This document shows positions 9,647 to 27,372 of a DNA stretch of 64,000 nt, piece after piece; positions within the stretch are counted from its first letter, which is position 1, and every line of letters begins with the position of its first letter. Both the position numbers and the translations under genes were made by a program. Under the pieces are notes generated by a model. That model was not told the DNA's origin. It searched no databases and saw only the letters and a list, made by a program, of their open reading frames with translations. Origin of the DNA: Kaistia geumhonensis (GTDB lineage: Bacteria; Pseudomonadota; Alphaproteobacteria; Rhizobiales; Kaistiaceae); assembly GCF_030815145.1 (NCBI RefSeq), contig NZ_JAUSWJ010000001.1, positions 2,790,001 through 2,854,000 on the forward strand. The letters are read 5' to 3'.

Positions 9647-10251
9647 GGGTTCTTCTCCTGGTCGATGAGGCCGCGCGATCTCAGCCAGCCGAGCAGCGGC
9701 AGCAGCGGCAATCCGAGAATGGTGAAGTAATCGCCCTCGATGGCTTCGAACAGCCGGACGCCGACGCCTTCCAGATGGTAGGCGCCGACGGAGCCGAAGA
9801 TGCCCTCGGCCGCCTCGTCCAGATAGCGCTCGATGGCCGCCGGCGAGAGCCGCCGCATCGTGAGCCGCGCGTCCGACACATGCTGCCAGGCGCTGCCCGG
9901 CCCCTCGGCGACGACCACGGCCGAGACGAGCCGATGCGTCCTGCCTTGCAACTCTTCTATCTGCCGGCGGGCGCCGTCGCGGTCGCCCGGCTTCACCAGG
10001 CGCCGGCCGCCGAGGTCCAGCACCTGGTCGGCACCGATGACGACGGCTCCGGGCCGAAGCGCCAGCACCGCCTCGGCCTTGGCCCGGGCGAGCGCCAGGG
10101 CGATCGCCTCCGATGGCTCGCCGGCGGCGATGAGCGGCGCCTCCAGGGCGCGTTCGTCGACCGGCGCGGCGAGTCTGGCGAAGACGAGGCCGGCATTGGC
10201 GAGCAGGCTTTTGCGCGCCGCGCTGGTCGAGGCGAGGATCAGCGCCGTCAT
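9643..10251 (-). CDS. maf: Maf-family nucleotide pyrophosphatase
   Basis: Maf proteins hydrolyse non-canonical or canonical nucleoside triphosphates to monophosphates as house-cleaning enzymes. The 202-residue product begins with the family signature [14 protein letters not shown] (4-17), has the catalytic Asp in GADQVLDL (D75), and the late [14 protein letters not shown] block. Assignment to the YhdE- or YceF-type subfamily is not certain from sequence alone. Both ends overlap neighbours by four bases (ATGA with ppsR, ATGA with aroE). Confidence 0.92.
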
Positions 10252-11084
10252 TCGCTCGCTCCGAGCGCCGCGCCCTTGCGCAACGACAGGATCGCCGCCG
10301 CGGTCTCCTCGATCGAGCGCCGCGTCACGTCGATCACCGGCCAGCCCTTGCGCGCGCAGATGCGCCGCGTCGATGCGATCTCCGCGGCGACCGCCGCGCG
10401 GTCGACATAAGGATCGTCGCTGCCGAGGCCGGAAAAAGCGAGGACGCGGTTCTCGCGCATCTGCACGATCCGGTCCGGCGTCGCGACGAGCCCGACGATC
10501 AGCGGCCCCGTCACGCGCTCCAGCTCGGCCGGCAGCGACACGCCGGGCACGATCGGGATATTGGCGGTGCGGACGCCGCGATTGGCGAGATAGATGCTGG
10601 TCGGCGTCTTCGACGTGCGGCTGACGCCAATGATGACGATCTCGGCGAGGTCGAGATCCTCCAGCATCTGCCCGTCGTCATGCATCATGGCGAAGGTCAG
10701 CGCCTCGATGCGGCGGAAATAATCGCCGTCGAGCGCATGCTGCGCGCCGGCGCGGCCCTCCGACGAGGCGCCGAGATAGGACTGGAACACCTGCAGCACC
10801 GGATCGAGCACCGAGAAGCAGGGCACGGCGATCAGCCGGCAGCCGGCTTCCAGCGGATCGGCGATGCTGCGATCGACCAGCGTGAACAGAACGATGCCCG
10901 GCTCCCGCTCGATATCGAGCAGAATGCGCTCGACCTGCTTGGGCGAGCGCGTCATGGCGTGGATGTGCTCGACGACCGAAACGCCGGGATACTGCGCCGT
11001 CGCAGCCCGCGCGACGGTCAGGAGGGTCTCGCCCGTCGCGTCGGAGACGAGGTGGAGATGGAGATGCCGAAGCTCGTTCTTCAC
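10248..11084 (-). CDS. ppsR: Pyruvate, water dikinase/PPDK regulatory protein (DUF299)
   Basis: DUF299 proteins are bifunctional kinase-phosphorylases that switch pyruvate phosphate dikinase or phosphoenolpyruvate synthase off and on. The 278-residue product opens LHLHLVSDATGETL (8-21) and carries the P-loop-like GVSRTSKTPTS (153-163). The GTG at 11084 has GGGGACAAGGAC directly upstream; an in-frame ATG at 11108 adds MHRAGDKD and cannot be excluded. This family is the RP001-type gene that flanks the chromosome origin opposite hemE in Caulobacter and Rickettsia. It starts the minus-strand run down to dnaQ. Confidence 0.93.
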   Translation of the reverse strand: MKNELRHLHLHLVSDATGETLLTVARAATAQYPGVSVVEHIHAMTRSPKQVERILLDIEREPGIVLFTLVDRSIADPLEAGCRLIAVPCFSVLDPVLQVFQSYLGASSEGRAGAQHALDGDYFRRIEALTFAMMHDDGQMLEDLDLAEIVIIGVSRTSKTPTSIYLANRGVRTANIPIVPGVSLPAELERVTGPLIVGLVATPDRIVQMRENRVLAFSGLGSDDPYVDRAAVAAEIASTRRICARKGWPVIDVTRRSIEETAAAILSLRKGAALGASE

Positions 11085-11225
11085 GTCCTTGTCCCCAGCC
11101 CTGTGCATGGGGGCGCACAAGTCGGGCCAAAGCCCGTCACCCCCGTCCCTTCTCCCCGATGCGGGGCCGACGATCAACAGCGGCTCGGCCTGGGGAAAGA
11201 ATGGAGCCCCGAACAAGTGAATCGT

Positions 11226-11470
11226 GAATCCGCGGTCCGTTGCCCCACTTCTTAACGAAAGGTTAACAAGATGGCCGGGATGGTTCGAATTTTAACGACC
11301 TTGAAAGACCTGCGTCGATTCAAGGGCCTGATGGGCGCGCTCCGGATCTTGTCCCCGAATCCCCCAGCCGGGATCGGCCGTTGGCCAGCGCCTATGCCGC
11401 AGCGCGGGTCGATTGTGGATGCCCGCGAATGACGCTAATTCCCCCCTCAAGAAGAAGAAACAAAAGATTC
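11226..11470. promoter_or_regulatory. Cluster of four GANTC (CcrM) methylation sites
   Basis: GANTC occurs at 11226-11230 (GAATC), 11317-11321 (GATTC), 11357-11361 (GAATC) and 11466-11470 (GATTC). CcrM methylates this motif in alphaproteobacteria and the methylation state reports passage of the replication fork. Fewer than one site would be expected in a stretch of this length at about 64% GC. Confidence 0.55.
11252..11267 (+). promoter_or_regulatory. CtrA-binding site, full consensus
   Basis: The sequence TTAACGAAAGGTTAAC matches TTAA-N7-TTAAC, the consensus for the alphaproteobacterial cell-cycle regulator CtrA. In Caulobacter, CtrA bound at the origin blocks replication initiation. Such AT-rich spaced repeats are rare by chance at this GC content. 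It could also control hemE or ppsR transcription. Confidence 0.75.
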
Positions 11471-11502
11471 AAGGCTCTCTTTTTAGAGATGAAGGAGGTG
11501 TG

Positions 11503-12549
11503 GTGACGGACGCCGGTACGACGCAGCGCGAGGCCTCCCGGTTCCTCGCCGTTCTCGACGGTGCAGCCGTCTCGCCCCCGCCGATCTGGCTGATGCGCCA
11601 GGCAGGCCGCTACCTTCCCGAATATCGCGCCGTGCGCGCCGAGGCCGGCGGCTTCCTCGACCTCTGCTTCGATCCCGCCCGCGCGGCCCGCGTCACCCTT
11701 CAGCCCATCGAGCGGTTCGGCTTCGATGCGGCGATCCTCTTCTCGGACATCCTCGTCATACCGCATGCGATGGGTCGCAGCGTCCGCTTCGCCGAGGGCG
11801 AGGGACCGCGTCTCGAACCGATCGACGCCGAAGGCATCGAGGCTCTGGAGGTCGAGGGCGTCGTCGCGCGGCTTGCGAGCGTGCTGGAGACCGTCGAGCG
11901 GGTGCGGGGCAGCCTGCCCGCTTCGACGGCGCTGATCGGCTTCTGCGGCGCTCCCTTCACGGTTGCGACCTATATGATCGCCGGGCGCGGGACACCCGAC
12001 CAGGCGCCGGCCCGCCTGCTGGCCGCGCGGCAGCCCGAGCGGTTCGCGATGCTGATCGACCGGCTGGTCGAAGCCTCGATCGATTATCTCGTCGCCCAGC
12101 TCGACGCGGGCGCCGATGCCGTGCAGATCTTCGACAGCTGGGCCGGCGTGCTGGCGCCGCCGTCCTTCCGGCGCTGGAGCGAGGAGCCGATCGCGCGCAT
12201 CGTCGCCGGCGTCCGTGCGCGGAAGCCGGGGGCGCGGATCATCGGCTTTCCGAAGGGTATCGACCGAGCGGTGGCGCCCTTCGCCGCGGCGACGGGCGTG
12301 AACGCGGTCGGCGTCGACTGGACGGTCCCGCTTCGCGCCGTCCGGGACGAACTCGGCGGGCGCTGCGCGCTGCAGGGCAATCTCGATCCGATGCTGCTCG
12401 TCGCGGGCGGTCCCGCGCTCGAGGCGGCGATCGACGACATCCTGGAAGCGATGGCCGGCGCCCGCTTCATCTTCAATCTCGGCCACGGCATCGTGCCGGA
12501 GACGCCGATCGCCCATGTCGAGCAGCTGATCCGCCGCGTGCGGGGCTGA
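11503..12549 (+). CDS. hemE: Uroporphyrinogen decarboxylase
   Basis: HemE removes four carboxyl groups from uroporphyrinogen III to give coproporphyrinogen III. The 348-residue protein has the signature [17 protein letters not shown] (26-42), [19 protein letters not shown] and [12 protein letters not shown] near the end. The GTG at 11503 is chosen because AAGGAGG ends four bases before it and it yields the usual VTD start; the frame is open back to 11413 with an unrelated Lys-rich stretch. It opens the plus-strand block leaving the proposed origin and is followed by hemJ, giving a small haem operon. Confidence 0.95.
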
Positions 12550-17832: not shown

Positions 17833-17848
17833 TGTTTCACGTGAAACA
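17833..17848. other. parS centromere site 1 (perfect palindrome)
   Basis: TGTTTCACGTGAAACA is the exact 16-base consensus bacterial parS palindrome, the ParB-binding centromere. It lies between mnmE and mnmG, about 6.4 kb from the proposed origin and 3.5 kb from parB. Confidence 0.95.
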
Positions 17849-19789: not shown

Positions 19790-20427
19790 CAGTGCGGCCG
19801 GAGAGCATCGCGGCGCTGCGCGACATCATTGCTGTTTCACGTGAAACGGAGCAGCGGCTCAACATCTATGTCGAGCTCCTGCGCAAATGGCAGCCGGCGC
19901 AGAACCTCGTCTCGCCGCGAACGATGACGGAGCTCTGGACCCGGCATATCGCAGATTCCGCGCAGCTCGTCGCGCTGTTCCCGGAGGACCGGCACTGGGT
20001 CGATATCGGCAGCGGTGGCGGACTTCCAGGGCTGGTCACCGGAATCCTTCTGGCGGAACAGCCTGGTGCCTCGGTCATCTGCGTCGAGTCCAACCAGAAG
20101 AAATGCGCCTTCCTGCGGACGGTCGCGCGCGAAACCGGCGCCCCCGTGACAGTGCGGGACGGGCGTATCGAATCGGTTCTGAAACAATTGGACGGCCCTG
20201 TTGACCGCATCAGCGCCCGGGCGCTGGCGCCGCTCGACAAGCTGCTCGATCTCTCGGCGCCGCTTCTCGCCCGCGGTGTTCCGGCTGCGTTCCATAAAGG
20301 CGAGGATTTTGATCAGGAGCTGGCGGAAGCCTCTCAATCTTGGTCGCTCGATCTGGTAAGACACAAGAGCTTGATCGATCCGGCGAGTTCGATCGTGGAA
20401 ATCCGACGCGCAGAGCGCAGGCTCTGA
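19786..20427 (+). CDS. rsmG: 16S rRNA (guanine(527)-N7)-methyltransferase RsmG
   Basis: RsmG methylates G527 of 16S rRNA. The 213-residue protein has the SAM-binding motif [11 protein letters not shown] and the downstream [12 protein letters not shown] block. Residues around 18-22 read VSRET, encoded by the second parS site, so DNA centromere and protein sequence share the same bases. The ATG overlaps the mnmG stop. parA follows 17 bases after the stop. Confidence 0.96.
19833..19848. other. parS centromere site 2, inside rsmG
   Basis: TGTTTCACGTGAAACG matches the parS consensus at 15 of 16 positions. It lies within the rsmG reading frame, where it encodes VSRET, exactly 2,000 bases from site 1 and 597 bases upstream of the parA start. 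Confidence 0.88.
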
Positions 20428-20444
20428 GGCTCCGAGGGCACGCC

Positions 20445-21293
20445 ATGTCCGATGCGCACTCCTTCTCTCCCCCCTCGCTGCTGGCGGCCGCGCCGCGCGT
20501 GATCGCGCTCGCGAACCAGAAGGGTGGCGTCGGCAAGACGACGACGGCGATCAATCTCGGCACCGCGCTTGCGGCGATCGGCGAAGAGGTGCTGATCGTC
20601 GATCTCGATCCGCAGGGCAACGCGTCGACGGGCCTCGGCATCGACCGCAAGCTTCGTCTTCGTTCGACCTATGACCTGATGGTCGGTGAGTCGATCCTGT
20701 CCGAGGTGGCGATGGAGACCGCGGTGCCGCGTCTGTCGGTGGCGCCATCGACCATGGATCTGCTCGGCGTCGAACTGGAGATCGCCAGCCGTTCGGATCG
20801 CGCGTTCCGGCTCCGTCGCTCCATCGCCGCGCATGTCCAGCGCGCGGAATCGATTCGCGGGCGAAACTACTCCTATGTTCTCGTCGACTGCCCGCCCTCG
20901 CTCAATCTCCTGACCATCAATGCCCTGTCGGCGTCGCACTCGATCCTGGTTCCGCTGCAATGCGAGTTCTTCGCGCTCGAGGGCCTGTCGCAGCTGCTGC
21001 AGACGGTCGAGCAGGTGAAGCATGCGCTCAATCCGGAGCTGACGGTGCACGGCATCGTGCTGACCATGTTCGACAGCCGCAACAACCTCGCCGGCCAGGT
21101 GGTGTCGGATGTCCGAGCGCATATGGGCGACGCCGTCTACGATACGGTCATTCCGCGCAATGTGCGCATCTCGGAGGCGCCGTCGCATGGCAAGCCGGTG
21201 CTGCTCTACGATTTCAAGAGCACCGGCAGCCAGGCCTATCTGCGGCTCGCCTCGGAGATCATCCAGCGCGAGAAGCGGCTGCGCGCCGCCTGA
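20445..21293 (+). CDS. parA: Chromosome partitioning ATPase ParA
   Basis: ParA is the Walker-type ATPase that moves ParB-parS complexes apart during segregation. The 282-residue product has the deviant Walker A KGGVGKTTT (26-34), VDLDPQGNASTGLG, YVLVDCPPSLNLLT (Walker B) and the FALEGLSQLLQTV block. The ATG at 20445 was selected: the frame is open back into rsmG, but homologues start a few residues before the Walker A region. parB follows 27 bases downstream. Confidence 0.96.
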   Translation: MSDAHSFSPPSLLAAAPRVIALANQKGGVGKTTTAINLGTALAAIGEEVLIVDLDPQGNASTGLGIDRKLRLRSTYDLMVGESILSEVAMETAVPRLSVAPSTMDLLGVELEIASRSDRAFRLRRSIAAHVQRAESIRGRNYSYVLVDCPPSLNLLTINALSASHSILVPLQCEFFALEGLSQLLQTVEQVKHALNPELTVHGIVLTMFDSRNNLAGQVVSDVRAHMGDAVYDTVIPRNVRISEAPSHGKPVLLYDFKSTGSQAYLRLASEIIQREKRLRAA

Positions 21294-21320
21294 CGACGAA
21301 ACGAGAAGAGGAACGATCCC

Positions 21321-22190
21321 ATGGAGGATGGCAACCGTCGTCGGCTCGGCCGCGGCCTTGCGGCGCTGATCGGTGACGTCGATACCGAGTCGGTCGTCAA
21401 CGAGCGCTCGCGCCTGTCGCGGCGCGTGCCGATCGCGTTCCTCCGCCCCAATCCGCGCAATCCGCGCAAGGCCTTCGAGGAGTCCGACCTCGCCGATCTG
21501 ACGGCGTCCATCCGCGAGAAGGGCATCGTGCAGCCGATCCTCGTCCGTTCCGTCGTGGGCGGGGGCGAGGCCTATGAGATCATCGCCGGCGAGCGCCGCT
21601 GGCGGGCGGCGCAGCGCGCCGGGCTCCATGACGTCCCGGTCCTGATCAACAACGTCTCCGACCAGGAGGCGCTGGAACTCGCCATCATCGAGAATGTCCA
21701 GCGCAGCGATCTCAACGCGCTCGAAGAAGCGCTCGGCTATCAGCAGCTCATCGACGAGTTCGCCTATAGCCAGACGGCGCTGGCGGATGTGATCGGCAAG
21801 AGCCGGCCGCACGTCGCCAATACGCTGCGGCTCCTGAAGCTGCCGGAGAAGGTCCAGGCCTATGTCCGCGAGGGCAAGCTGACGGCGGGCCATGCGCGCG
21901 CGCTGGTCACGGTCGACGATCCCGAAGCTGTGGCGCAGCGGATCGTCGAGGGCGGGCTGACCGTCCGCGAGGCCGAGGCCATCACGCAGACGGAGAAGGC
22001 GGAGCGTCCCTCCGCGAAGCCGCGCCGCGAGAAGGACGCCGATACGCGCGCCCTGGAAAAGCTGCTCGGCGACAGCCTCGGCTTGGCGATCAGGATCGAT
22101 CACAAGGGCGACGGGGCCGGCCAGCTCTCGATCCGCTATACGAGCCTCGAGCAGCTCGACGAGCTCTGCCGCCTCCTGAAGCGCGAATAG
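21321..22190 (+). CDS. parB: Chromosome partitioning protein ParB
   Basis: ParB binds parS and spreads as a CTP-dependent clamp. The 289-residue protein starts with the ParA-stimulating basic segment [14 protein letters not shown] (6-19), then the CTPase/Box I motif [21 protein letters not shown] (Box II), a central helix-turn-helix ([22 protein letters not shown]) and a C-terminal dimerisation domain. Both candidate parS sites lie within 4 kb upstream. Confidence 0.97.
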
Positions 22191-26673: not shown

Positions 26674-27372
26674 ATGACCGACACCGTCGCCGAACGTCTC
26701 GCGGCCATCTGCGCCCGCATCGCCGCCGCGGAGCGCGAGGCCGGCCGGCCAGAGGGATCGGCCGCGCTGGTCGCGGTGTCGAAGACCTTCCCGGCCGAGG
26801 ACATGCTGCCGGCGCTCGCCGCCGGTCAGCGCCTGTTCGGCGAGAACCGCGTGCAGGAAGCCGAAGGGAAGTGGCCGGCGCTCGTCGCCGCGCATCCCGA
26901 TATCGAACTCCATCTCATCGGGCCGCTGCAATCCAACAAGGCGCGCGAGGCCGTGGCGCTGTTCGACGTGATCCACACGGTCGACCGCGAGAAGATCGCC
27001 GCCGCGCTCGCCGCCGAGATGAACCGGCAGGGCAGGCGCCCTCGCCTCTTCGTCCAGGTGAATACCGGGCTGGAGCCGCAGAAGGCCGGCATCGCGCCGC
27101 GCGAGGCGGCGGCCTTTGTGGACCGCTGCCGCAGCGTGCACGGGCTCGCCATCGAAGGGCTCATGTGCATCCCGCCGGCCGAGGAATCGCCCGGTCCGCA
27201 TTTCGCGCTGCTGGCGAAGCTCGCGCGCGAGATCGGCGTTGGCGCGCTGTCGATGGGCATGAGCGGCGACTTCGAGACGGCCATCGCCTTCGGCGCGACG
27301 CATGTCCGCGTCGGCTCCGCGATCTTCGGCGGCCGGCCGCCCCTCACCCCGCCGCGAGAGAGCGCGGCCTGA
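26674..27372 (+). CDS. yggS: YggS-family pyridoxal phosphate homeostasis protein
   Basis: These single-domain, fold-type III PLP-binding proteins (PLPHP) keep vitamin B6 and amino acid pools in balance rather than catalysing a known reaction. The 232-residue protein has the PLP lysine in VAVSKTFP (K37), GENRVQEAEGKW, HLIGPLQSNKAREAV and SMGMSGDFETAIAFGATHVRVGSAIFG. The last 29 bases overlap, in antisense, the 3' end of the next gene. Confidence 0.94.
   Translation: MTDTVAERLAAICARIAAAEREAGRPEGSAALVAVSKTFPAEDMLPALAAGQRLFGENRVQEAEGKWPALVAAHPDIELHLIGPLQSNKAREAVALFDVIHTVDREKIAAALAAEMNRQGRRPRLFVQVNTGLEPQKAGIAPREAAAFVDRCRSVHGLAIEGLMCIPPAEESPGPHFALLAKLAREIGVGALSMGMSGDFETAIAFGATHVRVGSAIFGGRPPLTPPRESAA

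Follow-up and report, generated by a model that had tools for sequence, protein, structure and literature searches.

A putative chromosome replication origin between ppsR and hemE in Kaistia geumhonensis, with a predicted CtrA box and a candidate unwinding module beside hemE

Chromosome replication origins (oriC) linked to hemE are a known kind in the Alphaproteobacteria. Sinorhizobium meliloti, which belongs to the same order as Kaistia, the Hyphomicrobiales, has such an origin; Hyphomonas neptunium is not a member of that order. The origin of Caulobacter crescentus, Cori, has RP001 as one of its borders. Its border with hemE and its five CtrA boxes are described in passages of PMC8959179, and its W-box and G-box sequences in passages of PMC4285127. 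For H. neptunium, passages of PMC6650430 place the origin close to hemE by marker frequency, with parAB about 7 kb away, and state that GC skew, dnaA and searches for DnaA sites gave no clear origin; according to a part of PMC7200025, CtrA binds next to that origin. The chromosome origin of S. meliloti, in the passages concerned of PMC4433202, has no CtrA motif and is not bound by CtrA. Here we describe the 418-base gap between the divergent genes ppsR and hemE of K. geumhonensis, which is very probably the replication origin of this chromosome. The stretch that was analysed, hereafter the window, comprises 64,000 nucleotides (bases 2790001-2854000 of a one-contig genome of 4,587,821 bases). 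Beyond the known kind of hemE-linked origin, two things are new, a CtrA box of specific spacing that is found in much of the order and a hemE-proximal module that is shared, and for both of them we propose roles below. In the open-licence literature that was searched, mostly at listing level, no earlier report of CtrA boxes in Hyphomicrobiales origins was found.

The gap occupies positions 11085-11502 of the window, or 2.8011-2.8015 Mb of the chromosome, and dnaA lies 433 kb from it, at 2368328. An earlier note on this DNA had proposed it as a putative chromosome origin between divergent ppsR and hemE; the coordinates proved exact, the gap being bounded by two GTG starts, and the proposal itself is supported by two kinds of strand switch, by parS, by the neighbourhood and by motifs. 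The term RP001-type for ppsR is taken over from that note as an assumption.

10248-11084, minus strand: ppsR (phosphoenolpyruvate synthase regulator), the left border; PRK05339 (NCBIfam), E 2.6e-93; GTG start ending at 11084
11085-11502, no strand: proposed oriC, the ppsR-hemE gap, with the skew and octamer switch; the divergent pair is kept in relatives
11503-12549, plus strand: hemE, the right border; TIGR01464, E 2.3e-116; GTG start at 11503

Strand asymmetry was analysed in 60 evenly spaced 20-kb stretches, filler stretches and the window, amounting to 1,821,100 bases or 39.7% of the chromosome, with 0.86 Mb contiguous. The polar octamer GGGNAGGG, which we take to be a leading-strand marker, was found at 274 sites after tandems had been collapsed, of which 82% were forward on one arm, compared with 20% on the opposite arm. 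The optimal octamer switch lay at 2.835 Mb, with a 1.92-unit support between 2.73 and 2.84 Mb. At fourfold sites, the T-A strand term that is left when gene direction is removed was negative throughout the six regions between 0.345 and 2.801 Mb, where dnaA also lies, and positive in each of the five further on, while the G-C term was weaker, near zero on the left (positive in 2/6) and positive in 5/5 on the right; the region borders, including the cut at 2.801 Mb, were chosen by us. A free likelihood search placed the fourfold-site switch at 2.78 Mb (2.80 Mb scored 1.4 log units lower), and in a bootstrap of 300 gene resamplings the middle half fell at 2.77-2.80 Mb, 89% within 2.70-2.90 Mb and 1% at or below 2.45 Mb; open reading frame (ORF) calling was crude (1285 frames), and the likelihood and bootstrap were run with the terminus fixed at 345 kb. 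Both the octamers and the orientation-corrected fourfold-site skew thus switch within about 35 kb of the gap. A relative with a single contig of 5.35 Mb (G010) was sampled in four stretches on the left of ppsR, with 4 forward and 15 reverse octamers, in four from ppsR to dnaA, with 13 forward and 6 reverse (Fisher p 0.008 against the left side), and in a ninth, beyond dnaA, with 2 and 0. A short tandem GGGCAG repeat at G000 C1 ~1813879-1813941, which would inflate octamer counts, lies outside the counted stretches.

The chromosome contains only two parS-like sites with at most two mismatches, and both lie close to hemE, ahead of parA and parB, as the earlier note had indicated for parAB and parS.

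17833-17848, no strand: parS, perfect 16-mer, 6.3 kb from the gap
19833-19848, no strand: parS with one mismatch, 8.3 kb from the gap
20340-22190, plus strand: parA (ORF 20340-21293) and parB (21321-22190)

The match of the parB product to TIGR00180 passes the cut-off of the model; the ParA-family matches of the parA product fall under the models' own cut-offs. Since homology begins at about residue 51, the true start of parA is later than that of the ORF. Divergent ppsR and hemE borders, parS and parAB nearby and a strand switch at the gap are features of hemE-linked alphaproteobacterial origins, and all of them were found here, the switch to within tens of kb.

Within the gap, the following sites were recognised.

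11089-11097, plus strand: TTGTCCCCA, a W-box-like, predicted weak DnaA site, with TCCCCA at 11092-11097; block mostly kept in Kaistia
11149-11159, plus strand: CTTCTCCCCGA, W-box-like, a direct repeat of 11348-11358; its TCCCCGA block is largely kept in 14 Kaistia gaps
11173-11180, plus strand: ATCAACAG, invariant in 14/14 Kaistia gaps; no match to motifs familiar to us
11191-11196, minus strand: W-box TCCCCA (the plus strand reads TGGGGA), invariant in 14/14 Kaistia gaps
11219-11230, no strand: two GANTC (CcrM-type) sites, at 11219 and 11226
11252-11266, no strand: predicted CtrA box TTAACGAAAGGTTAA, TTAA-N7-TTAA; no other exact one occurs in the window, and 10 occur in the whole chromosome (4.59 Mb)
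11317-11321, no strand: GANTC site, a motif match
11348-11358, plus strand: CTTGTCCCCGA, a W-box-like repeat that overlaps the GANTC at 11357
11413-11419, minus strand: TTGTGGA, a DnaA-box core (GCATCCACA at 11414 in minus-strand reading), identical in all 14 Kaistia gaps
11436-11470, plus strand: TAAT, a GC-rich part and AAGAAGAAGAA, a candidate unwinding module, with a GANTC at 11466
11446-11485, no strand: lowest-GC 40-mer of the window (13/40), a likely DNA unwinding element beside hemE

The earlier note had listed a CtrA box, four GANTC sites and weak DnaA-like boxes in the absence of a consensus box. The first and the last of these were borne out, and the GANTC count had to be raised to five (11219, 11226, 11317, 11357 and 11466; 0.5 expected). 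Five such sites occurred in 3 of 1272 windows of 418 bp taken at 50-bp steps, all three overlapping the gap. Two 9-mers with two mismatches to the DnaA box TTATCCACA were present, at 11089 (plus) and 11414 (minus), where 0.24 would be expected. The two exact TCCCCA W-boxes and the two W-box-like TCCCCG sites are predicted DnaA sites. The gap resembles Cori in its gene borders, CtrA box, TCCCCA W-boxes and AT-rich element, and differs in having one exact CtrA box instead of five and no G-box TGATCCACA; because the G-box is missing, we do not file it as Cori proper. The sole one-mismatch DnaA box of the window, at 26969-26977 and 15 kb from the gap, has the sequence TGATCCACA, the Caulobacter G-box form. 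With H. neptunium the locus shares hemE, parAB within about 10 kb and an uninformative GC skew, and CtrA is bound nearby in that species; the evidence is experimental there, whereas ours is sequence alone. Unlike the origin reported for S. meliloti, the K. geumhonensis gap carries an exact CtrA box.

Fourteen gaps of 401-427 bases form the Kaistia set. Its conserved blocks are TCCCCAG...CTGTGGA beside ppsR (the right part of which is lost in K. geumhonensis), TCCCCGA, ATCAACAG, TGGGGA, the CtrA region and TTGTGGA, the last being followed 16 bases on by TAAT and then by an AAG-rich stretch ahead of hemE. On both strands together, TCCCCA occurs 36 times in the 14 gaps, against 0-3 for seven permuted words, and TCCACA 31 times, against 0-8 for six. 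An exact CtrA box is present in 9/14 gaps, sometimes twice, at two alternative places; allowing one mismatch, all 14 have a box, with 0-7/14 for other spacings. The predicted CtrA site in Kaistia is one that turns over while being retained. Two records named Bosea sp. (L076) and Mesorhizobium sp. BR1-1-16 (L078) group with Kaistia by PpsR identity and are probably misnamed.

Further, the comparison was extended to the order and the class. Among 149 Hyphomicrobiales genomes searched, 130 had ppsR, and 87 loci were examined, all outside Kaistia and one from its family, the 3 rows from Kaistia and the 40 with the lowest scores having been left out; the families carry anonymous numbers. A divergent hemE lay within reach of ppsR in 81/87 loci, four of the six others coming from one family, f29. 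The exact TTAA-N7-TTAA was found in 39/81 gaps, representing 14/27 families, whereas spacings of 2-6 and 8-13 were found in 0-2/81 each. TCCCCA occurred 79 times in these 81 gaps (controls 7-23) and TCCACA 162 times (controls 6-41). In the class draw, 80/115 genomes matched, two of them from the order, and 68 were examined (nine lowest-scoring loci and one at a contig end were left out); 62/68 had a divergent ppsR-hemE gap, and 9/62 of these gaps outside the order carried the N7 box, compared with 0-3 for other spacings. Predicted CtrA boxes are thus rich in the Hyphomicrobiales and not universal, and since the position of the box within the gap differs widely between families, it appears to have been gained repeatedly. 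Permuted words, other spacings and shuffles led us to reject a chance origin of the gap motifs. In family f29, 4/5 sampled members (L197, L200, L201 and L207) have no hemE within 2 kb of ppsR, and the origin neighbourhood may be rearranged there.

The layout beside hemE resembles the basal unwinding system of DnaA box and DnaA-trio described in passages of PMC8287927. The order consensus consists of TTGTGGA, AAT and Cs, TAATCCAC, about four GC-rich bases and then period-3 triplets with a middle A, whose share was 0.80-0.92 at five successive positions (42 sites with enough flank); the median distance to hemE was 66 bases. The matrix was family-weighted. Its seed was chosen by eye, and the 81 order gaps served both for training and for counting, which leaves the 14 Kaistia and the 62 class gaps as the ones outside its training; shuffling, here and in the strand test below, kept single bases or blocks of two bases, which does not amount to preserving true dinucleotide content. 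With these settings, the module passed the 99% shuffle level in 56/81 order gaps from 22/27 families, 55/56 in the same orientation to hemE, and exceeded the threshold in 14/14 Kaistia gaps and 9/62 class gaps (shuffled 0/62). The arrangement TGTGGA-N16-TAAT was present in 14/14 Kaistia and 22/81 order gaps, other spacings giving 0-3. In K. geumhonensis the module barely passes (matrix score 14.1, null 99% level 13.7), and the TAATCCAC box is degraded to TAATTCCCCC, with six successive middle-A triplets after the TCC[AC]C core. A strand test anchored on this box core alone, with no matrix, found that the box strand carries runs of at least five middle-A triplets in 14/14 Kaistia, 22/81 order (13 families) and 6/62 class gaps; on the other strand there were none in Kaistia, 0/81 in the order and 0/62 in the class, and shuffled gaps gave 0-0.6.

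The order consensus has the DnaA box, short GC-rich spacer and at least three.A. triplets that characterise the DnaA-trio system, and it shares with Bacillus subtilis the box core TAATCCAC, about four GC-rich bases and the period-3 triplets. The arrangement differs in that the box strand is the one that carries the triplets here, contrary to B. subtilis, whose DnaA-box orientation we assume. Because the triplets are not on the strand opposite the box reading TTATCCACA (3'->5' away from the box), the module was not filed as a B. subtilis-type DnaA-trio element. The sequence opposite the B. subtilis trios is given as CTACTATTACTTCTACTA in passages of PMC10201434; a search of PMC6669920 and PMC10721633 yielded no letters of the B. 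subtilis oriC. In Escherichia coli oriC, the A-rich TAATAAGAG is also on the box strand. E. coli does not settle the strand of the triplets, because the putative KAK triplets described in a part of PMC13220808 can be read on the other strand.

The following scheme would account for the firing of this origin and its timing, and taken as a whole, origin and DnaA/CtrA/GANTC control together, it is probably the best explanation. DnaA would be recruited through weak sites, namely the W-box-like TCCCCA/G and one TTGTGGA core, in place of consensus boxes, and would open the AT-rich element beside hemE, from which one fork would depart toward ppsR and one toward hemE. In non-replicating cells, phosphorylated CtrA on the mid-gap TTAA-N7-TTAA box would exclude DnaA, and methylation of GANTC by a CcrM-type enzyme would mark replicated origins. 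The genome encodes a CtrA ortholog with 82% identity to what we take to be the Caulobacter protein sequence, and a RAMA-domain frame of CcrM type (among 14 controls, RAMA matches Caulobacter only). Binding of CtrA to the predicted box at 11252-11266 is quite likely, and the chances that CtrA directly restrains initiation at the gap are about even.

Several results weigh against this interpretation. The skew check suggested by the earlier note held for the octamers and the corrected fourfold sites, and failed for raw cumulative GC skew, which has no switch at the gap and whose minimum falls at about 2.24-2.29 Mb when the spaced sample is used and at 2.16 Mb in the contiguous part, 80-210 kb from dnaA. 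The octamer grid point at 2.800 Mb is 2.9 log units under the optimum, beyond the 1.92-unit support though within its outer bounds; arm-trained 8-mers place the switch at 2.826 Mb, with a support of 2.822-2.836 Mb; the fourfold-site bootstrap tail extends to 2.58 Mb; and the 4.98 Mb stretch of the G010 relative is mixed (5/5 octamers). The strand switch is resolved to tens of kb, so the gap itself is singled out by gene order, parS and motifs. As for the sites, no 9-mer in the gap matches the DnaA box TTATCCACA with 0-1 mismatch. The exact CtrA box is absent from 5/14 Kaistia gaps, and TTAA-N8-TTAA, arising from adjacent half sites, occurs in 6/14 and blurs the picture. When one mismatch is allowed, the contrast in the order is smaller (N7 in 50/81 gaps, 10-24/81 for spacings 3-6 and 8-11), and 21 named loci, 16 of them Ancylobacter, gave N7 in 1, N5 in 3 and N4 in 1, with no N7 enrichment.

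The gap might be the origin and its CtrA box a promoter element, serving hemE, ppsR or a CcnA-like small RNA, instead of a replication gate; we hold this to be a serious possibility, somewhat short of even, and the varying position of the box between families is in keeping with it. A consensus scan, which does not cover all promoter types, returned no terminator and a single promoter-like site, at 11318-11289 on the minus strand, and Rfam, which may have no model for CcnA, gave no match within the gap (sole match E 5, outside it); neither result is a strong argument against a promoter role.

In many bacteria oriC adjoins dnaA. An origin beside dnaA, at 2.368 Mb, or one coinciding with the minimum of raw GC skew (~2.16-2.29 Mb), with the gap merely a promoter region, is very improbable for K. 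geumhonensis. That minimum, which speaks for it, probably reflects gene orientation, because the T-A strand term has the same sign on both sides of dnaA and flips at 2.801 Mb; being confounded in this way, raw GC skew was dropped as an origin locator. A switch placed at dnaA (2.37 Mb) is 22.5 log units worse than the best for the octamers and 33.9 worse for the fourfold sites, and both parS sites are near hemE. The switch beside dnaA that the earlier note had named as the contrary outcome did not appear, and a dnaA-adjacent oriC was rejected, though the raw minimum lies nearer dnaA. Hardly more credible is the idea that the conserved blocks are promoters and leaders of hemE and ppsR with no replication function, for although the ~100 bp ahead of hemE contain a block of strong conservation, the enriched W-box and TCCACA words, the GANTC cluster and the chromosome-wide strand switch at the gap speak against it.

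For the order as a whole, we tentatively suggest that direct CtrA gating of the origin may be a common feature of the Hyphomicrobiales, repeatedly gained and lost with site turnover, and that much of the order may share the module of inverted TTGTGGA, N16, TAATCCAC, four GC bases and middle-A triplets on the box strand; for this combined proposal the balance is rather unfavourable. If it holds, DnaA would engage the opposite strand or polarity compared with B. subtilis. With the N7-specific enrichment, seen in about half of the Hyphomicrobiales gaps sampled, the way in which CtrA controls replication in bacteria other than Caulobacter becomes open to direct testing; the enrichment also suggests that S. 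meliloti, the rhizobial model, need not be typical. The module, moreover, allows a probable unwinding element to be defined by its sequence in cases in which raw GC skew and consensus DnaA boxes are of no help.

On the left of the gap, dnaQ-coaE-aroE-maf-ppsR are oriented leftward, and on its right hemE-hemJ-rho and mnmE-mnmG-rsmG-parA-parB are oriented rightward. The outward radiation of gene blocks described in the earlier note is seen in these near blocks and becomes imperfect at greater distance, where secB is on the plus strand on the left side and holA on the minus strand on the right. The 15-mer of the origin CtrA box is also present in Kaistia soli, and its reverse complement recurs at G000 4519298 (L061 7941-7955), where it follows a PilZ-like ORF and precedes a transglutaminase-like one, both named by eye.
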